Shown: in pieces, positions 29,505-40,153 of the stretch
Layout of the letters: the number at the start of each line of letters is the position of its first letter
Position numbering within the stretch: the first letter of the stretch is position 1
From: a virus
Strand: one strand, 5' to 3'
IMG/VR virus record: IMGVR_UViG_3300025141_000203
Span: 1 to 43,945 of that record
Length of the DNA stretch: 43,945 bases
Notes under the pieces: generated by a model
Seen by the model: the letters and a program-made list of their open reading frames with translations, nothing else
What the model was told of the DNA's origin: nothing
Databases searched by the model: none
Made by a program: the position numbers and the translations under genes

Positions 29505-31028
29505 ATGTCGTTAGCAGAGGAATTTGCTACACGCTTCGCAGGCTTACGCCATGCGTATGGAACCTTCACCGCTACTAATGAATCACGAGAAGATGGCAAG
29601 GCAAGTGGTAAAAACGTTACCATATCTAAGGAACTATCCGATAAGGATCTTTTAAAGTTATGGGAAAACCACTTGTCAGGGGAACAAAGCGTTGGAATTG
29701 TCCCTATAGACGAGAACAACGCCTGTATGTGGGGAGCAATTGATGTCGATGAATATCAATTGGATCTCAAAGGGTTAGCTAAGAAATTAGCCAAACATAA
29801 ACTCCCTCTTGTTGTCTGTCGTAGTAAAAGCGGTGGGGCTCACGTATATTTATTTATAGCGGAGCCAGTACCAGCGTCTTTATTACAAAGAAAGTTACGA
29901 CAACTAGCTGCATCTATCGGTTATGGACAAGCCGAAATCTTTCCTAAACAAACCCAACTCTTATTAGAGCGAGGGGATAGAGGCAGTACGTTAAATATGC
30001 CGTACTTTGGGGGTGAAAACTCCACACGGTATGCCTATGGAAAAGGCGGCGAGGCACTAACACCTACTGAGTTTTTAGAGCAAGCCACTAAGATTACTTT
30101 AACGGCATCTGCGTTAGAGAAACTGGAAGCGAGCCCGTTAACTGAAGAAGTAGACTGGTTAGACCAAGGACCTCCTTGTATTCAACACTTAGTGGTACAG
30201 GGCTTTCCTAAAGGTACGCGTAACTCAGGCTTGTTTAACGTGGGCGTCTTTCTAAGAAAGAAGTACCCCGATGATTGGGAGAAGCGTTTAGAAGATGTAA
30301 ACATGCAGTATATGCAACCCCCACTAGGGGCACAAGAAGTATTAACCATTGGTAAACAGTTAAAACGTAAGGATTACTTCTACCGTTGTAATGACCAACC
30401 GATAGCGAGTCATTGTAATAGCCCTCTCTGCCGTACACGAAAGCATGGGATAGGGGCTAATGGAGGCACTCCGTTGTTCAGTAACCTAACTAAACAGGAC
30501 AGTGAACCGCCTATCTGGTTCTTAGACGTAGAGGGTGGACGCTTAGAACTAGAGACCGATGATCTATTAAACCAGAATCGTTTTCAACGTAAGTGTATGG
30601 ACGCCCTAAATAAAATACCACCCAAGGTCAAGGAAAATGTGTGGCGACAGATTATCCAACAGCTATTGGACAGTTTAACCATAGTAGAAGTACCCAAAGA
30701 GTCGTCCACCGAAGGACACTTCCTAGAATTACTCGAGAACTTCTGCACCGAGCGACCTGCCCGTGAGCGAGACGAACTATTATTACATAAACCATGGACA
30801 GATAATGGTAAGACCTATTTCCGTCTAGGCGATTTAATGGAACACTTACACCGTAATAACTTTAAAGAATACCAAAGAAATAAATTAACCTCTAAGCTAA
30901 AACAATTACATGGGGAACCTTTCTTCTTCAATATAAAAGGAAGGGGCGTGAACGTCTGGTTTATAGATGAGTTTAAATCCCAGGATGAACCCCATGACCT
31001 ACCTGATTTTGATGACAATCCACTATGA
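29505..31028 (+). CDS. Archaeo-eukaryotic-type primase (TOTE/PrimPol-like)
   Basis: The 507-residue protein carries the AEP catalytic signature: metal-binding Asp80 and Asp82 in GAIDVDEY and the SGGAH box with His113 (residues 109-113). A third strand region EIFPKQTQLL follows at about 144-153. A PriCT-like helical part follows, then a cysteine cluster (YRCNDQPIASHCNSPLC, near 289-305) that may bind zinc. It would make primers for the polymerase encoded at 37008. The layout resembles TOTE-type primases. It overlaps the AlkB-like gene by four bases. Confidence 0.8.
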   Translation: MSLAEEFATRFAGLRHAYGTFTATNESREDGKASGKNVTISKELSDKDLLKLWENHLSGEQSVGIVPIDENNACMWGAIDVDEYQLDLKGLAKKLAKHKLPLVVCRSKSGGAHVYLFIAEPVPASLLQRKLRQLAASIGYGQAEIFPKQTQLLLERGDRGSTLNMPYFGGENSTRYAYGKGGEALTPTEFLEQATKITLTASALEKLEASPLTEEVDWLDQGPPCIQHLVVQGFPKGTRNSGLFNVGVFLRKKYPDDWEKRLEDVNMQYMQPPLGAQEVLTIGKQLKRKDYFYRCNDQPIASHCNSPLCRTRKHGIGANGGTPLFSNLTKQDSEPPIWFLDVEGGRLELETDDLLNQNRFQRKCMDALNKIPPKVKENVWRQIIQQLLDSLTIVEVPKESSTEGHFLELLENFCTERPARERDELLLHKPWTDNGKTYFRLGDLMEHLHRNNFKEYQRNKLTSKLKQLHGEPFFFNIKGRGVNVWFIDEFKSQDEPHDLPDFDDNPL

Positions 31029-31612
31029 AGAAACTATTTAAAGGTCTGATGAAAGACTACCACGATGTAATTACTGAGTGGGACGAACCTAACACCCGTA
31101 TATTTAATGGCAACGAAGTAGTGGGGAGACCCACACGAGGCTTTGGCGATTCCAATTTTAATTATGCGGGTAAATACATGAGACCCGAACCTTGGGATAG
31201 TCACCCCATTATAAAGTTGATAAAAGAAGAGTCAGAAGAGTTTGTTTCTAAGGAACTGGATAGGGAAATTAATTTTACATTTTGTCTCTGTGGTTTTTAT
31301 TCTACAAAAGGAGAAGGAATACCTCACCATTCAGACACGGTCCCAACTTATAAAGACGTGGTCTTTTCTATCTCTTTAGGGGCACCCCGAATTATGGAGT
31401 GGCGAACGTATTGGACGGCGGTTAAAGAGGGCAGTGATACCAGTCGTTTGGCTCTCTGGGGTAGACAACCACGGTCAGAGAAACTATATGCTTTAGAACA
31501 CGGAGACGCTTTATTATTTGATGGAATGTCACAACTGTTTAGTACCCATGCCATTTTACCCTTCCCAAATGCAGGGGAGCGCACTAACCTAACCTTTAGG
31601 ACAGGGTTGTGA
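31025..31612 (+). CDS. AlkB-like 2OG-Fe(II) dioxygenase
   Basis: This 195-residue protein shows the AlkB pattern: His102-x-Asp104 in PHHSDTVP, the strand VVFSISLGAPRIMEW, distal His175 in STHAILP and the double-arginine end RTNLTFRTG with Arg186 and Arg192. AlkB enzymes remove N-alkyl groups from DNA or RNA bases by oxidation. Phage copies could repair damage or act on modified bases. It sits between primase and helicase genes with overlaps on both sides, so it is part of the replication operon. The substrate is not readable from sequence. Confidence 0.8.
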   Translation: MKKLFKGLMKDYHDVITEWDEPNTRIFNGNEVVGRPTRGFGDSNFNYAGKYMRPEPWDSHPIIKLIKEESEEFVSKELDREINFTFCLCGFYSTKGEGIPHHSDTVPTYKDVVFSISLGAPRIMEWRTYWTAVKEGSDTSRLALWGRQPRSEKLYALEHGDALLFDGMSQLFSTHAILPFPNAGERTNLTFRTGL

Positions 31613-33105
31613 CACTACCTAGCCACACTCAAATTATTCTTGGACCACCAGGAACTGGAAAAACCAGTACCTTACTTGGACTAATTGAAGATGAGCTAGA
31701 AAAAGGTACGGCTCCTGATCGCATAGGATTTTTTACTTTTACTAAGAAGGCAGTTAACGAAGGGAAGGAAAGGGCAATACTACGGTTTGATTTATCAAAT
31801 CGTGATCTACCCTTTTTCCGTACGCTACACTCACTAGCCTTTAGACAACTAGGGCTAACGCGAGAGAGTGTAATGGGACACGGAGACATCTTAGCATTGA
31901 ACGAGAAACTTAATCTAAAACTTAGTGGCAGAACCACCTCAGACGACGGGCATTTATTTAGTATGACTCATGACGACCGTCTAGCATTTATTGAGAACCT
32001 CGCACGCATGCGGAACGTACCTTTAGAAGAACAATGGCACGAGGTAGACGATGCAGTAGGTTGGTTTGAACTAGAACGGTTTGCCAGAGGTCTAAAACTA
32101 TTTAAGGAGGACAGGTTACTGGTGGACTACACAGACATGCTACAAATCTTTTTAGAGAAAGGCGATGTCCCAAAACTAGATGCCATGTTTGTAGACGAGG
32201 CACAAGACCTCTCCCCCTTACAGTGGTCAGTGGTGCGTAAACTAGCTGAATATGCTGATCGAATTTATGTAGCGGGCGACGATGACCAAGCTATTTATAA
32301 GTGGGCGGGGGCTGATGTCGATTACCTTATACAGAATTCTAAAGGGGCAATGGTATTACATCAGTCTCACCGTGTACCCGCTGCCGTACATGAAGTAGCT
32401 AGTCAATGTATTGGACAAGTGCGTTCCCGTATTCATAAAACCTGGAACCCACGAAAAGAGGAAGGGTTAGTACGGTGGGAACCTACGATTGAATTAATTA
32501 ACATGGAGGAAGGAGATTGGTTAGTCTTAGCACGCACTAATTATTTGTTAGAGGAGATCGATGAGTATTGTAGAAACCAAGGTTGGTTCTTTGAAGTGAA
32601 AGGTAGACCTAGTATTTCCGAAACCAAAGTACGAGCGGTACTTAATTGGGAACGATTGTGTAAGGGGTTTGACATATCGATGACCGACTGTGCAAACTTA
32701 TTAAAATTCATTAAGGTACGCGACCCTAAGTCCCTCGATATTTTAGACTTTGACGTAAGCATCACGCACGAGGTACTTAAAAAGCACTTTCCCGACCTAC
32801 CTGAAGGACATTGGTACGATGTTTTTAATTTATTAAGCGTAAAAGAGATCAGTTACATCCGTGCCATGCTTCGGAGAGGAGAAAAAATTACTAAGCAACC
32901 CAGGATTCGTCTATCGACTATCCATGCTGCGAAAGGTGGGGAGGCAACGAACGTAGTTTTATTAACTGACATTACTAATCGAGTTTATAAAACATACCAG
33001 AATAATCCAGACGATGAAAACCGAGTCTTTTATGTAGGGCTCACCCGAACAAAGGAGAATCTATATTTAATTGAACCTAAAACAACACGCTGCTTTCAGC
33101 TATAA
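31609..33105 (+). CDS. UvrD/PcrA-like SF1A DNA helicase
   Basis: A 498-residue helicase that starts at a GTG overlapping the previous stop (GTGA). Motifs in order: Walker A GPPGTGKT (12-19), TFTKKAVNEG (Ia), DEAQD Walker B (near 197-201), VAGDDDQAIYKWAG (III), LHQSHRVP (IV), STIHAAKGGEATNVVLL (V) and RVFYVGLTRTKENLYLI (VI). It would unwind DNA 3' to 5' with ATP. It is shorter than UvrD, lacking large accessory insertions, as is common in phages. It ends the operon begun at 27795; a new promoter follows. Confidence 0.87.
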   Translation: MTLPSHTQIILGPPGTGKTSTLLGLIEDELEKGTAPDRIGFFTFTKKAVNEGKERAILRFDLSNRDLPFFRTLHSLAFRQLGLTRESVMGHGDILALNEKLNLKLSGRTTSDDGHLFSMTHDDRLAFIENLARMRNVPLEEQWHEVDDAVGWFELERFARGLKLFKEDRLLVDYTDMLQIFLEKGDVPKLDAMFVDEAQDLSPLQWSVVRKLAEYADRIYVAGDDDQAIYKWAGADVDYLIQNSKGAMVLHQSHRVPAAVHEVASQCIGQVRSRIHKTWNPRKEEGLVRWEPTIELINMEEGDWLVLARTNYLLEEIDEYCRNQGWFFEVKGRPSISETKVRAVLNWERLCKGFDISMTDCANLLKFIKVRDPKSLDILDFDVSITHEVLKKHFPDLPEGHWYDVFNLLSVKEISYIRAMLRRGEKITKQPRIRLSTIHAAKGGEATNVVLLTDITNRVYKTYQNNPDDENRVFYVGLTRTKENLYLIEPKTTRCFQL

Positions 33106-33110
33106 AGTTC

Positions 33111-33140
33111 TTTACTTTGTACCTAAAAGTAAAGGATAAT
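33111..33140 (+). promoter_or_regulatory. Promoter, TTTACT class (copy 2)
   Basis: TTTACT at 33111-33116, 18-base spacer, GATAAT at 33135-33140. It is followed by TTAGAAAGGAGAACTT and the ATG at 33170. This promoter would drive the base-modification genes. Confidence 0.6.
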
Positions 33141-33169: not shown

Positions 33170-34018
33170 ATGTCATCAATAAGAAGAAAATTAAAAGTTA
33201 ATGAAAACGATAGCAAGAATACTCGTATGGATATTGCTACGGCAGGAGTGCTAGGTAACTGGCGACCTGACGAGCTAACTCATATCAGTCGTTACGATAA
33301 AATAGCGTCGCTTTGTATTCAAGAAGCTAAGAACCTAGACCGACCCCTCGATGCTTTTGAAGTAGGGTGTGGAGAACTCTGGGTATTAAGAAATATCTAT
33401 AAGGCGTACACCGTTAAGAAGTCAGACATTATTCAATCCTATTACGGCGTGGATATTGATCCCGCTATCCTAACGGAGAATCCCTTCTGGTCTAACGGCG
33501 GAGAGCCTATAGACGAGTCTACTTGGCTTAAGAATTTTAACGCAGTTTTAGAAGTTCAAGACGTTACCACCCACCCCACATTTAACCTACCTGACGAAAG
33601 CATAGATTTTTTCTGGACAACTGAAGTGATTGAGCATATGGGAAAAGAGTTTATTAATCCCTGGTTGGAAGACGCGGCTCGTTGCCTACGTCCAGGAGGG
33701 TTAGCTTATGTATCTACTCCTAATCATGAGGGTTCTAATGATAAGTTACCCGCAGACCACGTTTATGAGTGGGGATTTGATGAACTAAAAGACGAACTAG
33801 AAAAACATTTCACGATTGAATCAGTGGTAGGCACGTTTATACAAATGCCTAGATTGAGAAAAGCCATGTCTGGAGACAATTATACTCACGGTGGGTGGAG
33901 CGTAGAACAAATGTTGTTGTTACAAGAACGTTTCGGTAAACAGTTTTTAAGAATGGTGGCGGCTGTGTTCTACCCTGAGATAGCTAACAACTGTGCGTGG
34001 GTACTAAGGAAAGAATGA
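33170..34018 (+). CDS. Class I SAM-dependent methyltransferase
   Basis: The 282-residue protein has the Rossmann signature of SAM methyltransferases: motif I FEVGCGEL (63-70), acidic post-I GVDID (93-97), FFWTTEVIEHM (147-157) and CLRPGGLAYVSTPN (about 172-185). There is no DPPY or PC motif of DNA amino- or C5-methyltransferases. This is the small-molecule/Methyltransf_11-like type, whose target could be a modified base, a nucleotide or another small molecule. It is first in the operon with the base-modification genes and ends in an ATGA overlap. The substrate is unknown. Confidence 0.75.
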   Translation: MSSIRRKLKVNENDSKNTRMDIATAGVLGNWRPDELTHISRYDKIASLCIQEAKNLDRPLDAFEVGCGELWVLRNIYKAYTVKKSDIIQSYYGVDIDPAILTENPFWSNGGEPIDESTWLKNFNAVLEVQDVTTHPTFNLPDESIDFFWTTEVIEHMGKEFINPWLEDAARCLRPGGLAYVSTPNHEGSNDKLPADHVYEWGFDELKDELEKHFTIESVVGTFIQMPRLRKAMSGDNYTHGGWSVEQMLLLQERFGKQFLRMVAAVFYPEIANNCAWVLRKE

Positions 34019-34944
34019 CAGAATTTATTCCCGAAGAACTAGATCGCTATCGCTATTGGCAAATAGAGCGAGAAAAGATCCGATTTAAAAAAGAGAATCT
34101 AGGAGAAGATCCCCCTTGGACAAACGACCCTATATTACAAGAGTTTAAATTCTGCCAAGTCTTTCGGGAAGATGACCGAACAACACGGTGGTTTGCTAAA
34201 CATATAAGAGAACCTTTAAGAGACGACCCAAAGGTTTTAATGGCAACCGTTATTTTTAGATGGTTTAACTTAATCGAGACGGGGAGAACTCTACTAGAAC
34301 ACAACTTACACTTAGAGTGGGATAGAAAGAAAGCGATTGAAGAAATCACTAAACAACCTAAGTGGATAACAGGCTCCTATATTATTAAAACTCCAAACCG
34401 TATGGATAAGGTGACAGGGGTGGCTGAATGTATTAGTCATATGTGGAGCGATCGAAACTATTTAATAAGTGCTTTATTAACTTGTGCTGCAAACAAAGAA
34501 TCTTCATTAGAAGATACATGGAATTTATTAAGAGATTATCCCTACATGGGTCCCTTTATGGCATATGAAGTGGTAACTGATTTACGATGGACGCATTTTT
34601 TAGAAAACGCGGACGATATATTGACGTGGGCTAATGCTGGACCAGGAGCGATGCGTGGACTTAATCGTTTAACAGGCAGAGATTTATCCTTTTCCCAACG
34701 TAGCCATGATTGGAATAAAGAAATGAATGATTTATATGAAGTTATAACTAAGGAAAGCCCCCGTATTTGGTTTAATCGAAAAGACTTGCCGTATGAAATG
34801 CGAGAGATAGAAGGGGGTCTATGTGAATTCGATAAGTATTCCAGAATCCTAAAGGACGAGGGAAGAACTCGTTCTATTTATAAATACAATAAAGAACTTC
34901 CTATGGTGGAAGATACAATTAACGGAGAAAGTATATGGGCATAA
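34015..34944 (+). CDS. 5-hmdU DNA kinase-type helical domain protein (aGPT-Pplase-like)
   Basis: The 309-residue protein matches from memory the helical domain family linked to thymine hypermodification (HMUDK_hel / alpha-glutamyl-putrescinyl-thymine pyrophosphorylase group). Signature segments are RYWQIEREKIRFKKENLG (12-29), PPWTNDPILQEFKFCQVFRE (33-52), a glycosylase-like turn MGPFMAYEVVTDLRW (about 181-195) and WANAGPGAMRGLNRL (about 208-222). Family members act on 5-hydroxymethyl-dU in DNA or its pyrophosphate. The P-loop kinase half found in the known 5-hmdU kinase is absent here. The hydroxymethylase-type gene lies 380 bases downstream in the same operon. Confidence 0.75.
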   Translation: MTEFIPEELDRYRYWQIEREKIRFKKENLGEDPPWTNDPILQEFKFCQVFREDDRTTRWFAKHIREPLRDDPKVLMATVIFRWFNLIETGRTLLEHNLHLEWDRKKAIEEITKQPKWITGSYIIKTPNRMDKVTGVAECISHMWSDRNYLISALLTCAANKESSLEDTWNLLRDYPYMGPFMAYEVVTDLRWTHFLENADDILTWANAGPGAMRGLNRLTGRDLSFSQRSHDWNKEMNDLYEVITKESPRIWFNRKDLPYEMREIEGGLCEFDKYSRILKDEGRTRSIYKYNKELPMVEDTINGESIWA

Positions 34945-35156
34945 TGAAAGAAAAAGCAATTAATTTGCTAGAAGAATACGGGGACTTAGTAGATATCTAC
35001 TATACTCAATTCTTAGAAGTTTCCTTCTTTTTGAAAGTACCTGCGAGTTACCCTATGGTATTAGCATTTCTTAAAAAGAAAATACCTAACCTAACAGAGC
35101 AAGAACTTAGCTTTTTGGTTAGCGAAATTACATCGGCTTATCATGAAGAGATATGA
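34935..35156 (+). CDS. Small acidic/helical protein, unknown function
   Basis: A 73-residue protein within the modification operon. I prefer ATG 34935 because GGAG lies seven bases upstream; ATG 34944, which overlaps the previous stop (TAATG), is the alternative. It is helical with an aromatic-rich middle (VDIYYTQFLEVSFFLKVPASY). The next gene overlaps its stop by four bases. No motif is recognised. Confidence 0.6.
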   Translation: MGIMKEKAINLLEEYGDLVDIYYTQFLEVSFFLKVPASYPMVLAFLKKKIPNLTEQELSFLVSEITSAYHEEI

Positions 35157-35344
35157 AACGATACAGAGGAACGGCACGGAGAGACGGTGTTGAAAATAAA
35201 AGATCGAGGTGGATTTTGAAAGTAACGGACACCGAAACCAATGAAGTAGTAGAAGAAGGTTCAATAGTAACTCTTAGTGGAGAAACGGCTATCGCTAAAG
35301 CACATGAACTCGCACGAGGATGGAATGAAAGTAATTCGAGCTAG
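35153..35344 (+). CDS. Small basic protein, unknown function
   Basis: The 63-residue product begins with a basic patch (MKRYRGTARRDGVENKRSRW), continues with a strand pair (ILKVTDTETNEVVEEGSIV) and ends in a short helix. It could be a small beta/alpha nucleic-acid-binding protein, but no family comes to mind. It overlaps genes on both sides (ATGA upstream, 20 bases downstream). Confidence 0.55.
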   Translation: MKRYRGTARRDGVENKRSRWILKVTDTETNEVVEEGSIVTLSGETAIAKAHELARGWNESNSS

Positions 35345-36392
35345 AAACGTCAACGACGCACTATTGTTAGGTTTAGATTTATTCCAAGACCCCCGTAACT
35401 TTAGAACGCAAGAGAGCCGTAACGGAGTTACTTACGAAGCCTTAGAGCCTGTCACCACAGTTTATGAAAGACCGTGGGAACGAGTGTGCTTACTTAAGAA
35501 ACGAGACGCCAACCCGTTCTTCCATTTTATAGAAGGACTTTGGATGCTGGCAGGACGTAACGATTTAGAACCCTTAACTTATTTTGTTAAATCCATGGAA
35601 GATTTTTCTGATGACGGTGAGACGCTATGGGGAGCCTATGGAGCACGGTGGCGACACTGGTGGGACGTAGATCAACTAGGAGAAGTGATAGATATTCTTA
35701 AAGCTGACCCGTATGACCGTAGAGCTGTGCTCCAAATGTGGGACGTAGATACCGATTTAAACAGAATTGGAAAGGATCTCCCCTGCAATACCAATATTTA
35801 TTTTAAAGTACGTGATGAAGCACTACAGATGACAGTCTGTTGTCGCTCTAACGATATGCTCTGGGGAGCATACGGAGCCAACGTGGTACATATGTCTATG
35901 CTCCAAGAATATATGGCAACAGCACTCGGAATAGGAATGGGAATTTATCGACAACTAAGTGACAGTTTTCACGTCTATCACAACGAAGTCTGGGAGCGTA
36001 TGAAACATTTAGAGATTGATCCCTTAACCTTTAGAACACAGACTAGGAACCCCTACGATGTATTAGAAAACCCTCAACACGTTCCTCTAATTACAGATTT
36101 TAAAAGATTTCCTTCCGAATTAGAAGAATTTTTTGAACTTTTTACTCAAAGTATTATATCGGATGCAAACTACCCAAGATTTGATCAAACTAACTGGGTC
36201 AACCCAGCATTTAAGGACGTAGGAGTACCTATGTTAAAAACCTTTAAATTACATAAGGAAAGAGATTATTTGAATTCTTATCGAGAGGTAATGAATATAT
36301 TACCTACCGATTGGATGACAGCGTGTTTCGATTGGATTCGGAAACGAGATACGATGTGGAGTATAACAAAAAAGGAGAAAACTCATGGTTAA
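35325..36392 (+). CDS. Thymidylate-synthase-like dUMP hydroxymethylase
   Basis: This 355-residue member of the thymidylate synthase fold carries the nucleophile Cys154 (LPCNTNIYF), the phosphate-binding arginines in DRRAVLQMWDVD, the RSNDMLWGAYGANVVHMSML segment (174-193) with Asn186, and His216 and Tyr218 in SDSFHVYHNE. After the Cys the usual His is replaced by Asn-Thr. The WGAYGAN sequence is the form I recall for phage hydroxymethylases. Asn rather than Asp at the base-recognition site favours dUMP over dCMP. The likely product is 5-hydroxymethyl-dUMP, although plain thymidylate synthase activity cannot be excluded. The start at 35325 has GAGGA upstream. Confidence 0.75.
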   Translation: MKVIRARNVNDALLLGLDLFQDPRNFRTQESRNGVTYEALEPVTTVYERPWERVCLLKKRDANPFFHFIEGLWMLAGRNDLEPLTYFVKSMEDFSDDGETLWGAYGARWRHWWDVDQLGEVIDILKADPYDRRAVLQMWDVDTDLNRIGKDLPCNTNIYFKVRDEALQMTVCCRSNDMLWGAYGANVVHMSMLQEYMATALGIGMGIYRQLSDSFHVYHNEVWERMKHLEIDPLTFRTQTRNPYDVLENPQHVPLITDFKRFPSELEEFFELFTQSIISDANYPRFDQTNWVNPAFKDVGVPMLKTFKLHKERDYLNSYREVMNILPTDWMTACFDWIRKRDTMWSITKKEKTHG

Positions 36393-36732
36393 TAAATGGG
36401 AAGCGATGCTCGCCATCGCACAAAAGGATTTAGATGCTCTGAAAAGGGCAGAAGAATCTTATGGGGATTCATGGAGGCGTCGAGGTGGAGTCGGTGCTTT
36501 TATGATGTTGGCTCGTAAGTTTGATCGAATAGAACACCAATGTGAAAAGCACGGGTGGAACATATTCGAAGCGGGCGAAGCCTTTAAAGGTGAAGCTGGT
36601 CTACTCGATGATATTCGAGACTTACGAAGGTATTTAATTTTAGTGGAGGACTTTGTTCTCCGCACTGACAATAAGGAGGAAGAAGAATGGGATTACTCGA
36701 CTGGTTCCGAAGACGAAGAAAACGACCAATAG
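36385..36732 (+). CDS. DUF1599/Nmad1-like nucleotide-modification-associated protein
   Basis: The 115-residue helical protein has the pattern of the DUF1599 (Nmad1) family: SYGDSWRRRGGVGAFMMLAR, KFDRIEHQCEKHGWN, and LLDDIRDLRRYLILVEDF. Members occur next to base-modification or nucleotide-metabolism genes in phages, matching the neighbouring hydroxymethylase. The biochemical role of the family is not settled. It may bind a nucleotide with its conserved charged helices. GGAG in an AAAAAGGAGAAAACTC leader precedes the ATG, which overlaps the hydroxymethylase stop by eight bases. Confidence 0.6.
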   Translation: MVNKWEAMLAIAQKDLDALKRAEESYGDSWRRRGGVGAFMMLARKFDRIEHQCEKHGWNIFEAGEAFKGEAGLLDDIRDLRRYLILVEDFVLRTDNKEEEEWDYSTGSEDEENDQ

Positions 36733-37004
36733 TTGCTGACCAAGAGGGCAAAAGTCCTTACGAACAAGCTAAAGCTATTATTCAAAAACAACGAGCCGCA
36801 GATGAACTTAGAGCAAAAGCTGAAAAGGATTCAGAAGTCACTTTAGAAAAGTTTGAAGCTGAAAAAGCGAAGCCTAAGCCAAAACGTGCCAGAACAGCTA
36901 AAGGACGTTATAAAGGAGACGATAAGTCTACCCCCGACGTTAACGAAGCATGGGAAGGCGGAAAGGCTCCAAAGAAAAAGAGCAAAGCTAAAAAGAAAAA
37001 GTAA
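36687..37004 (+). CDS. Small lysine-rich protein, unknown function
   Basis: A 105-residue, strongly basic protein with an N-terminal WFRRRRKRP patch and a C-terminus PKKKSKAKKKK. Between them lie a helix (SPYEQAKAIIQKQRAADELR) and a motif GRYKGDDKSTPDVNEAWEGG that I recall from marine phages. It probably binds nucleic acid. It overlaps the preceding gene by 46 bases, with a perfect AAGGAGGAA ribosome binding site inside that gene. DNA polymerase follows after three bases. Confidence 0.65.
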   Translation: MGLLDWFRRRRKRPIVADQEGKSPYEQAKAIIQKQRAADELRAKAEKDSEVTLEKFEAEKAKPKPKRARTAKGRYKGDDKSTPDVNEAWEGGKAPKKKSKAKKKK

Positions 37005-37007
37005 CCA

Positions 37008-38870
37008 ATGCAACAAGAACCGTTATTTACTCCCGAAAGCGACTGGTCTATACCAGACGTGTTCCCTCAGTTTACTGATAAGGAACGCATCGCCGTAGAT
37101 CTCGAGACCTATGATCCTCATCTCCTGACCAGTGGTCCAGGATGGGCGACGGGTCGAGGACATATAGTAGGTGTAGGGGTAGCAACGGAGAGTTGGAAAG
37201 GTTACTTTCCCATTCGTCATGAAGGCGGTGGGAACCTCGATGAGGCGGTAGTCTTGCGGTGGTTGAAGAAGACGCTTTCTTCTCCCAAGCGTGAGGTCAT
37301 CTTTCATAATTCACTCTATGACGTGGGTTGGTTAAGGAGGGAAGGCGTAGAGGTCCAGGGCAAAATCCTAGACACTATCTTCGCCGCTCCTCTAGTCGAT
37401 GAAAATCGACATTCCTACTCACTTGATTCCCTCGGACAAACATACTGTGGAGAAAAGAAAGATGAATCACTGCTGCAAGACGCTGCCTTAGCTTGGGGAA
37501 TCAATCCCAAAGCAGAAATGTACAAACTACCTTCCAAATACGTTGGACCGTATGGAGAGCAGGATGCTGCATTGACCTTAAAACTTTGGGAAAAATTAAA
37601 AGTTGAACTTAGAGAACATAATAGTGAATCTATCTTCGAGATGGAATGTAAATTAATCCCTTTACTTTTAGAAATGCGAGGAAGGGGTGTTCGAGTAGAT
37701 GAAGCTAAAGCCGAGGAGATAGGAGAAACTCTTTCTAAAGAGGAACAAAAGATCCAAGTGGAGATCAAACGCAAGTATGGTAATGAGGTACAGCTCTGGG
37801 CAAATGCCTCGCTACAAAAGATATTTGATGATAATAGTCTATGGTACCCCAAAAGCCCAACAGGTCTAGCAAGTTTCCAACGCCAGTGGCTCGAGGGACA
37901 CGAACACGAATTACCACAACTAATTGTAAAAGCCAGAAAACTTAATAAAGCCAGAACTACTTTCATCGACAAGATGATTATGGAACATTCTTATAACGGC
38001 AGAATACACGCGGAAGCCCACCCCCTACGCAGTCATCGTGGGGGCACGGTCAGTGGTCGTTTTAGTTACAGCAACCCCAATCTACAACAGGTCCCTGCAC
38101 GAGACCCCGAAATAGGAGGACTGATTCGTTCTCTATTTATTCCAGAGGACGGTTGCGAGTGGGGTATTTTCGATTACTCCCAACAAGAACCTAGACTAAC
38201 CGTACACTACGCTAATCAGATGCATCTAACGGGGGCTAAGGACGCCGTAGAGGACTATACGGAAAAGAACGCGGACTTCCACCAGATCGTAGCGGATATG
38301 GCTAATATACCGCGTAAACAGGCTAAAACAATAAATCTAGGACTTAGTTACGGAATGGGTAAACAGAAACTAACTAAAGAACTCGGACTTGATGATAATG
38401 AAGCAGAGAAACTCTTTGCTCAATATCATACGAAGGTTCCCTTTATTAGGGGACTACAAGATCAATGTGCTCGTGTTGCCATCGATAGAGGGTATATACG
38501 AACTATTGCAGGGAGACGATGTCGATTTGACCAATGGGAACATCGGTTCGAAGACAGTGTCCCTCTACCTTTGGAAGAAGCAAAGGAAAAGTATGGAGAT
38601 AATTTAAAACGGTCTTATACATATAAGGCTCTGAATCGTTTGATACAAGGCTCAGCGGCAGACATGACCAAGTTAGCTATGCTCGGTTTATGGGAGGAAG
38701 GAATAGTTCCTCACCTACAAGTCCACGACGAAGTCGATATATCCGTAGAGAACACAGACCAAGCTCAAAAAGTTGCAAGAATAATGGAAAACTGTATAGA
38801 GTTGGCTGTTCCCCTCGTAGTGGACATAGAACTCGGACGATCCTGGGGCGAAACGGAGGAAATAACATGA
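37008..38870 (+). CDS. polA: Family A DNA polymerase with 3'-5' exonuclease
   Basis: The 620-residue replicative polymerase has a DnaQ-type exonuclease: Asp31 and Glu33 in AVDLETY, Asp105 in NSLYDVGWLR, Tyr182 and Asp186 in YGEQDAAL. The polymerase palm follows: motif A IFDYSQQEPRL (Asp389), motif B RKQAKTINLGLSYG (Arg436, Lys440, Tyr448) and motif C VHDEVDI (His573-Asp574-Glu575). There is no 5'-3' exonuclease domain. The residue at the E. coli Phe762 position is Leu444. It would copy the phage genome using primers from the primase at 29505. It is followed by an HTH gene at an ATGA overlap. Confidence 0.93.
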   Translation: MQQEPLFTPESDWSIPDVFPQFTDKERIAVDLETYDPHLLTSGPGWATGRGHIVGVGVATESWKGYFPIRHEGGGNLDEAVVLRWLKKTLSSPKREVIFHNSLYDVGWLRREGVEVQGKILDTIFAAPLVDENRHSYSLDSLGQTYCGEKKDESLLQDAALAWGINPKAEMYKLPSKYVGPYGEQDAALTLKLWEKLKVELREHNSESIFEMECKLIPLLLEMRGRGVRVDEAKAEEIGETLSKEEQKIQVEIKRKYGNEVQLWANASLQKIFDDNSLWYPKSPTGLASFQRQWLEGHEHELPQLIVKARKLNKARTTFIDKMIMEHSYNGRIHAEAHPLRSHRGGTVSGRFSYSNPNLQQVPARDPEIGGLIRSLFIPEDGCEWGIFDYSQQEPRLTVHYANQMHLTGAKDAVEDYTEKNADFHQIVADMANIPRKQAKTINLGLSYGMGKQKLTKELGLDDNEAEKLFAQYHTKVPFIRGLQDQCARVAIDRGYIRTIAGRRCRFDQWEHRFEDSVPLPLEEAKEKYGDNLKRSYTYKALNRLIQGSAADMTKLAMLGLWEEGIVPHLQVHDEVDISVENTDQAQKVARIMENCIELAVPLVVDIELGRSWGETEEIT

Positions 38871-39211: not shown

Positions 39212-40153
39212 ATGAATACGGCGAAGGGGTTTGTTAGGTTTTTAGAACTCCTTCCTGTACTGGGGGTGGTGAAAGCTCACCCCCAGCGTAAAAAATATAA
39301 ATCAAAGATATGCAAGCAGTGCAAACTAACTATAAAAGAACCAAAAAGAAGAAAATTCTGCTCTACTGAATGCCATAACGTTTACTGGCTACAAAATCAA
39401 AACCCTAAGAAAATATCAAAACCACAACCTTGTGCGTTTTGCAAAAAAGAATTTAACCATCCCCGACAACGCAAGTATTGCTCTGCGGAATGCAGAATAA
39501 ACGCCAACTCTATTACCTATAATGACTACACTAAAGAAAGAAACTGTGTTCGTTGTGGGAATATCCTGCCTTATGGGGTAACTATCTATTGTTCAGAAGA
39601 CTGTAGAAAAGAACAACACTACGCCAATTTAAAAAATCCGTTTAGCACTCACGGAACAGGAGAAAGAGCTTCATTACTCCCTTATGAACCCAACGTAATG
39701 CCCACGCATTATGTAGACCCTGAGATACTGTCTCAAGCGGAACTACATGTAGAGTGCCACGGGAGCGGAATAAAAGAAGACATGGAGGAAATAAACCAAA
39801 TCATTATGGAGGAAAATATAAAACAACCTTCAAGGTATAAGAAAACTTTTCGCTCTCCCGAAAAAAGCGGTAAGTTGTACTGGTCGGTAAAACAACACGA
39901 AAACGAACGCAGAGAAAGAGCAGGACTATCCAAGATACCGAGTATGAGACACTCTAATTTAGAGCAACAACTTATAGACCATCACAAGGAAAAAGATAAA
40001 GACCCAATGGTAGCCGTAAGGGAGAAGAACTATCAAATACAAAAACATACGAAGGGGTTTGCCACCATTACCCCTATACGCACCAAAAGTGGGAAATCAT
40101 TATCAGAGGTAATGGAGAATGCCAAAAGAAAGCAATCTATGGGCTCTACTTAG
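39212..40153 (+). CDS. Triple zinc-ribbon protein
   Basis: The 313-residue protein holds three metal-binding repeats: Cys34/37/50/54, Cys74/77/90/94 and Cys112/115/127/131, with pattern C-x2-C-x11/12-C-x3-C and words KFCSTEC, KYCSAEC and IYCSEDC. They are about 38-40 residues apart. The C-terminal half (about 170-313) is charged and helical with basic clusters. It probably binds nucleic acid or a protein partner. The first 27 residues look unlike coding sequence of the neighbours and span a strong hairpin at 39260-39286, so the start is less certain. The last 35 bases overlap the nuclease gene. Confidence 0.65.
   Translation: MNTAKGFVRFLELLPVLGVVKAHPQRKKYKSKICKQCKLTIKEPKRRKFCSTECHNVYWLQNQNPKKISKPQPCAFCKKEFNHPRQRKYCSAECRINANSITYNDYTKERNCVRCGNILPYGVTIYCSEDCRKEQHYANLKNPFSTHGTGERASLLPYEPNVMPTHYVDPEILSQAELHVECHGSGIKEDMEEINQIIMEENIKQPSRYKKTFRSPEKSGKLYWSVKQHENERRERAGLSKIPSMRHSNLEQQLIDHHKEKDKDPMVAVREKNYQIQKHTKGFATITPIRTKSGKSLSEVMENAKRKQSMGST
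39260..39286 (+). other. GC-rich hairpin at the start of the zinc-ribbon gene
   Basis: CTGGGGGTG at 39260-39268 and CACCCCCAG at 39278-39286 form a perfect 9-base stem with loop GTGAAAGCT. It lies about 50 bases into the reading frame. Downstream bases are A-rich rather than T-rich, so it is not a typical plus-strand terminator. It could slow translation, protect an RNA end or mark an insertion boundary. Confidence 0.55.

Follow-up and report, generated by a model that had tools for sequence, protein, structure and literature searches.

The operon described here lies on a 43,945-nucleotide stretch of viral DNA (IMG/VR record IMGVR_UViG_3300025141_000203), called the window in the following. 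It is a 43.9-kb virus fragment whose left end opens with an SU10-type adaptor; it encodes proteins like Pam3 gp33 and gp34, no match to terminase, portal or capsid families was found among the window proteins scanned, and a near-identity DNA search gave no match to cultured phages. Together with its relatives it forms a widespread clade of bacterial viruses, mostly uncultured and probably marine. Bounded by the genes for a UvrD-type helicase (end at 33105) and for DNA polymerase of family A (start at 37008), seven overlapping genes form one chain, which we read as a candidate pathway of thymine hypermodification that would dispense with a kinase and directly methylate the hydroxymethyl group of 5-hydroxymethyl-2'-deoxyuridine (5-hmdU). 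The features are:

33110-33140, plus strand: promoter/operator, an inverted repeat overlapping a sigma70-like promoter
33170-34018, plus strand: class I methyltransferase dependent on S-adenosylmethionine (SAM), 282 aa, of a hydroxymethylase-linked family (PF13489/PF08241; orthologues, profile, model); proposed O-methyltransferase of 5-hydroxymethyluracil
34015-34944, plus strand: HMUDK_hel / aGPT-PPlase1 protein, 309 aa; start ATG, or GTG at 33997; orthologue of M6 gp55 and Pam3_50
34935-35156, plus strand: small protein, 73 aa; most clade members have an orthologue (49-95% identical)
35153-35344, plus strand: small protein, 63 aa; orthologue solely in the closest relative, L005
35325-36392, plus strand: thymidylate synthase (TS)-like protein, 355 aa, predicted dUMP hydroxymethylase and putative source of 5-hmdUMP; start ATG as in M6, the open reading frame opening at 35277
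36385-36732, plus strand: 115-aa protein, called Nmad1-like; kept in all clade architectures and in cyanophage Pam3
36687-37004, plus strand: lysine-rich protein, 105 aa; orthologues in most clade members
37008-38870, plus strand: DNA polymerase A with 3'-5' exonuclease (PF00476, PF01612), presumed to incorporate 5-hmdUTP

The promoter site, CTTTACTTTG-N6-AAAGTAAAG at 33110-33134, is a perfect 9-bp inverted repeat (CTTTACTTT...AAAGTAAAG, 33110-33134) that overlaps the sigma70-like elements TTTACT/GATAAT (spacing 18) at 33111-33140. Such a palindromic site occurs once in the window, with 0.03 expected by chance, and in about 50 relatives exactly the same site, as a rule in one copy per locus, stands directly 3' of the UvrD stop; it is kept even where an extra gene has been inserted ahead of the methyltransferase. 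A Shine-Dalgarno-like sequence precedes most of the seven genes. Gene coordinates and the conserved promoter thus bear out an earlier, sequence-only reading of the window, which had proposed seven overlapping genes behind a single promoter, and the operon is confirmed. The small unknown proteins of that reading are also there, three of them rather than two. Its DUF1599 label for the 115-aa protein is not borne out, as PF07659 gives no match to this protein (36385-36732) even at E 10; the one similarity is with Pam3_54, annotated 'nucleotide modification', at 56% over 46 aa. Profile searches returned no family match for the 73-aa protein (34935-35156). The inserted gene, of about 160 codons, is found between the conserved promoter and the methyltransferase in many relatives (L001, L013, L032 and others), and to the eye its C-terminus resembles pyrimidine-dimer DNA glycosylases.

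The TS-like protein matches Thymidylat_synt of Pfam with 83.6 bits and phrog_5131 with 358 bits; a TS-like match occurs in 1154 of 50,697 phage records. Alignment with E. coli ThyA and T4 gp42 shows that the catalytic Cys is kept, that the base-recognition site holds Asn177 (uracil), as had been proposed from the sequence, and that E. coli Trp80 is lost, a pattern matching M6, Pam3 and other hmdU phages. Asn177 is present in 156 of 157 clade synthases, with a gap at this position in the last, and none of the 157 has Trp80. Of the solved structures, MilA (5b6d), which is a CMP 5-hydroxymethylase, is the best match. In a maximum-likelihood tree that held a single ThyA, on a long branch, the protein falls within the M6/Pam3 clade (support 98/97), apart from ThyA and from the Asp177 enzymes. 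A grouping with ordinary ThyA, named in advance as an outcome that would speak against a thymine-modification operon, did not occur, and an ordinary ThyA is ruled out by the tree placement, the lost Trp80 and scores of 50-82 bits against equivalog cut-offs of 108-405. Judging from active site and clade, we infer an enzyme of the dUMP-hydroxymethylase type that would form 5-hmdUMP.

The HMUDK_hel assignment likewise held, with a full-length match to PF18723 at 142.7 bits (cut-off 25) and all signature residues of the family kept. The protein is 38% identical to M6 gp55, its orthologue, and is not an orthologue of gp51, the amino acid:DNA transferase (ADDT) of M6. Among the phages that encode relatives, thymine hypermodification is documented in the literature for some (M6-like, PhiW-14, Ackermannviridae) and predicted for others. 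Its AlphaFold model (pLDDT 88.5) is closest to the PaMx11 5-PmdU glycinyltransferase (8z2n), followed by HhH DNA glycosylases; since no fold match reaches E 0.001 (E 0.32), this likeness is a hint. Sequence searches of the PDB returned no match for this protein or for the methyltransferase. We propose that HMUDK_hel may be a DNA-level reader of hydroxymethyl pyrimidines. Microbacterium phage Guetzie (L089, 1352-5883) combines HMUDK_hel and a P-loop kinase, yet its hydroxymethylase has Asp177, so that the family is apparently not limited to uracil.

In the published pathway (PMC6449724), phosphorylation of 5-hmdU in DNA comes first, and alkylamine transferases then attack the phosphorylated base. 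Phages of the M6 type (Pseudomonas M6/YuA, with 5-NedU in M6, cyanophage Pam3 and Rhizobium RHph_TM26) have orthologous TS and HMUDK_hel genes beside DNA polymerase A, which directly follows the cassette in the window as in M6 and Pam3; Pam3 likewise has the 115-aa Nmad1-like gene. A kinase-like gene adjoins HMUDK_hel in M6, Pam3, Sonora, RHph_TM26, AIIMS-Plu-RaNi and Epa5. M6 and Pam3 also possess an ADDT, a pyridoxal phosphate (PLP) enzyme, a radical SAM enzyme and Nmad5 besides the 5-hmdU kinase, whereas none of these was found in the window, which has the methyltransferase instead. Of the M6/ViI-type set, it has the dUMP-hydroxymethylase-type TS and the PF18723 protein and lacks the PF18748 kinase and the PF18724 ADDT. 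This reduced gene set, remarked on in the sequence-only reading as having no visible PLP enzyme or kinase, extends to the relatives. Profile searches found the 5-hmdU DNA kinase (PF18748) in 0 of 42 related contigs (28 plus 14 more) and ADDT (PF18724) in 0 of 28, and a read-through of five near-complete relatives (58-65 kb; terminal repeats of 127 bp, exact, in one and 97 bp, near-exact, in another) turned up no plausible Walker-A protein besides UvrD and no match to ADDT, PLP or M6-type radical SAM profiles; the window itself likewise has no Walker-A candidate for the kinase. Given the near-complete relatives and the profile searches, we reject a kinase outside the window; going by these sequences, kinase absence is a clade-wide state, not an effect of truncation. 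Matches to phrog_800 in relatives, considered as kinase candidates, cover the helical part alone (profile 324-477) and are the HMUDK_hel gene itself. A misleading label, terminase small subunit, is attached both to the 5-hmdU DNA kinase gp54 of M6 (L082, 9743-10306) and to phrog_800.

What takes the place of the kinase elsewhere? Four scans yielded 316 HMUDK_hel loci (143 at 90% identity), and the 104 with enough flank were counted. A kinase is present in 27, with ADDT nearby in 23 of them, and a direct transferase without kinase in 65; the two never occur together. The 65 comprise 38 loci with a methyltransferase of the window type, 18 with a TET-associated glycosyltransferase (TAGT), four with FkbM and a glycosyltransferase, four with a cytidylyltransferase-cupin/glycosyltransferase-like/radical SAM set and one with the glycosyltransferase-like protein alone. 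At L318, one of the kinase loci, there is a radical SAM match as well, which does not count as a direct transferase. Fisher's test for exclusivity gives p = 6e-16, a value not corrected for phylogeny and too strong, since loci share lineages; on a tree of 82 HMUDK_hel proteins the kinase/direct state changes seven times, at least six of these changes being forced by well supported branches.

TAGT (PF20691) is a DNA glycosyltransferase family (PMC13216743). It adjoins HMUDK_hel in L143 (5595-6431), there alongside a hydroxymethylase of the Asn type and no TET gene, and in 17 further non-redundant loci; these TAGTs may account for part of the 'solitary' ones reported in PMC13216743. Further sister cassettes carry other genes between HMUDK_hel and TS: in L079 (8756-11042) and L102-L108, an FkbM-type methyltransferase and a group 1 glycosyltransferase-like protein replace the methyltransferase, for which a methylated-sugar hmdU is predicted, and in L112, L117, L118 and L123 a glycosyltransferase-like protein is accompanied by a radical SAM/SPASM enzyme. 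The last three also encode a cytidylyltransferase fused to a mannose-6-P-isomerase-type cupin. The glycosyltransferase-like protein GTc has no Pfam match, so that its reading as a glycosyltransferase was made by eye.

The presence of a SAM methyltransferase in the operon was correctly recognized, the protein scoring above the Pfam cut-offs for Methyltransf_23/11 (PF13489/PF08241); orthologues within the clade are 65-84% identical. Matches to METHYLTRANSFERASE (33170-34018) occur in only 5 of the 50,697 phage records, all five beside a hydroxymethylase. These loci also carry an NTP pyrophosphohydrolase and a dCMP deaminase, mostly with a kinase-like gene. They define the AXL3/PW916-type cassette, which resembles the window in having a homologous methyltransferase beside a hydroxymethylase and differs from it in an Asp177, dCMP-type hydroxymethylase and the lack of HMUDK_hel. 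An IMG/VR scan with AXL3-type methyltransferase sequences alone recovered 80 independent loci. A hydroxymethylase lies within 6 kb in 74, with Asp177 (cytosine, dCMP type) in 73 of the 74; at the other six loci the contig ends shortly after the gene. At 27-29% identity between the groups, profiles of the window-type and AXL3-type methyltransferases match each other reciprocally (75-93 bits) and nothing else in the set, and residues outside the SAM core are common to both (N-terminal D34/H38/R41, C-terminal N274/W277). This linkage, in phage records as in IMG/VR, supports the view that the methyltransferase is no incidental neighbour of the cassette. As the family moves between hmC (Asp177) and hmU (Asn177) systems, it would most simply act on the shared CH2OH, and a hydroxymethyl pyrimidine is its likely substrate.

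Stenotrophomonas phage AXL3 (L093, gp27-gp31), with gp31 as its methyltransferase, offers a view of a cultured member. Of 37 restriction enzymes, 35 fail to cut its virion DNA and the other two act solely at AATT and TTAA (PMC7504290); the A/T-only sites of these two fit a modified cytosine. Its hydroxymethylase, gp28, is annotated as thymidylate synthase (PMC7504290), has Asp177 and resembles dCMP hydroxymethylase, a reading that fits the restriction pattern better than dT synthesis does.

From these data we derive the following scheme, to which, as kinase-free thymine hypermodification with direct methylation of the hydroxymethyl group, we assign an overall probability of about 0.55. The TS-like enzyme would convert dUMP to 5-hmdUMP, as its active site and clade suggest, and the phage polymerase would place 5-hmdU into DNA, by analogy with M6 and its relatives. 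HMUDK_hel, a helical protein with some likeness to DNA glycosylases, might then recognize or flip 5-hmdU in DNA, and the methyltransferase would use SAM to methylate the oxygen of the 5-hydroxymethyl group. The product would be 5-methoxymethyl-2'-deoxyuridine (dT + 30.01 Da), and the end effect presumably evasion of restriction. We have little doubt that the cassette is based on 5-hmdU, the testable parts of the earlier proposal to this effect having held up in sequence except for the DUF1599 label, and a pathway free of kinase is very likely. 5-Methoxymethyl-dU is the simplest outcome and the product we infer; whether it is indeed a simple O-methyl ether we would put at even odds. Known pathways phosphorylate the hydroxyl because its oxygen must become a leaving group for an amine. 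Where a methyl or glycosyl group is transferred, the 5-CH2OH oxygen serves as acceptor and nucleophile, and therefore no kinase, ADDT, PLP or radical SAM enzyme is needed. Such a mechanism accounts for the reduced gene set, for the exclusivity of kinase and direct transferases and for the indifference of the methyltransferase family to the base.

Several points weigh against this scheme. We found no nucleoside analysis of any clade member in the literature. The fold match of HMUDK_hel is weak (E 0.32). Neither kinase nor direct transferase is present at 12 of the 104 loci, and because the loci with a methyltransferase fall into few lineages, the 65 cannot be counted as independent cases. The methyltransferase fold matches O-, N- and C-methyltransferases alike; its target and position are deduced from linkage, and it could act on hmdUMP or hmdUTP instead of DNA.

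This last point leads to the principal variant, in which 5-hmdUMP or 5-hmdUTP is methylated and then incorporated by the polymerase, with a separate role for HMUDK_hel. The methyltransferase model does match small-molecule enzymes (TleD, AtmM, RebM), AXL3-type cassettes include a dNMP-kinase-like protein, an NTP pyrophosphohydrolase and a dCMP deaminase, and the MetaGPA carbamoyltransferase accepts 5hmdCTP (PMC8670742). However, HMUDK_hel, whose family works at the DNA level, stands beside the methyltransferase in every member of the clade of the window, and neither nucleotide kinase nor pyrophosphohydrolase was found in the clade's cassette, which makes this variant unlikely. Less probable still is that the pathway depends on a kinase after all, through an unrecognised or host kinase and a transferase, the methyltransferase decorating an amine or other group added later. 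In its favour, such kinases do diverge, that of Epa5 reaching 19.4 bits and so missing the Pfam cut-off; the window is incomplete; and on the tree PaMx11-like HMUDK_hel proteins with a linked kinase branch from within kinase-free ones. Against this stand the five near-complete relatives, with UvrD as their sole Walker-A protein and the ADDT, PLP and M6-type radical SAM profiles absent as well, and the exclusivity of kinase and direct transferases across HMUDK_hel loci, the kinase keeping company with ADDT in 23 of 27.

Equally improbable is an end product of plain (or partial) 5-hmdU, with a methyltransferase directed at RNA, protein or a cofactor. One methyltransferase relative is annotated 'capping protein', and plain 5-hmdU occurs in some phages, SP8 being an example (PMC7653180), but the linkage of methyltransferase and hydroxymethylase is near-obligate in unrelated phages, and sister cassettes fill the methyltransferase slot with genes of DNA glycosyltransferase type. 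As for an ordinary thymidylate biosynthesis operon without DNA modification, the TS fold with Asn177 would agree with it; scores below all ThyA equivalog cut-offs, the loss of Trp80 in 157 of 157 clade synthases, the HMUDK_hel partner and the placement in the M6/Pam3 clade make it highly improbable.

The proposed direct methylation of 5-hmdU has a parallel in the MetaGPA 5-hydroxymethylcytosine carbamoyltransferase, which is linked to a TS-like hydroxymethylase, PRA-PH and dCMP deaminase and O-acylates 5hmC (PMC8670742). There, too, transfer to the 5-hydroxymethyl oxygen is direct, but the group is carbamoyl and not methyl, the base cytosine and not uracil, and the enzyme unrelated. Marine pelagiphages of the HTVC023P type have the same pair of TS and aGPT-PPlase1 near DNA polymerase A, some with a putative glucosyltransferase (PMC9599517). 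That paper mentions no methyltransferase and is silent on kinase loss and on exclusivity. An untapped diversity of such modifications has likewise been suggested in print. The open-access literature searched contained nothing on point, be it about a methoxymethyl base in phages or about methyltransferases linked to hydroxymethylases, and relative to it the predicted base is unreported, and the methyltransferase-hydroxymethylase linkage and the kinase/direct-transferase exclusivity are new.

Two chemistries of thymine hypermodification would then be distinguished, one in which a kinase activates the base for amine substitution and one that uses the oxygen of the hydroxymethyl group directly, and the rule that kinase and direct transferase never share a locus would predict from a genome which of them applies. 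The retention of HMUDK_hel where the kinase is absent would bear on what this family does. The methyltransferase family belongs to common environmental phages, with AXL3 and PW916 as cultured members; should the methyl ether be detected, it would add to the natural DNA bases known and represent a minimal means of blocking restriction enzymes. More tentatively, and at somewhat less than even odds, a dedicated O-methyltransferase makes 5-methoxymethyl-2'-deoxyuridine in clade DNA and 5-methoxymethyl-2'-deoxycytidine in AXL3-type phages, HMUDK_hel being a general 5-hydroxymethylpyrimidine-DNA adaptor that serves either kinase and amine transferase or, exclusively, a direct O-transferase.

Some further observations concern the surroundings. 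The HMUDK_hel loci without partner (L389, L394, L399, L401 and eight more) lie on GC-rich phage contigs, and no TS was found in the flanks of the six examined. Between the primase and UvrD genes, the window encodes an AlkB-like 2-oxoglutarate (2OG)-Fe(II) oxygenase (31025-31612), which evolves fast (45-57% identity against 70-90% for its neighbours) and is missing from some relatives. We set it aside as a T-to-hmU oxidase because the hydroxymethylase already provides hmdU, and because it lies upstream of the promoter and is missing from several cassettes that are otherwise intact. A second 2OG-Fe(II) oxygenase (PF13759; 6397-7113), unrelated to the first, lies among the tail genes. At 39212-40153, a Cys-rich, zinc-finger-like protein with weak Ecl1/PLATZ matches is highly variable, at 25-74% between relatives.

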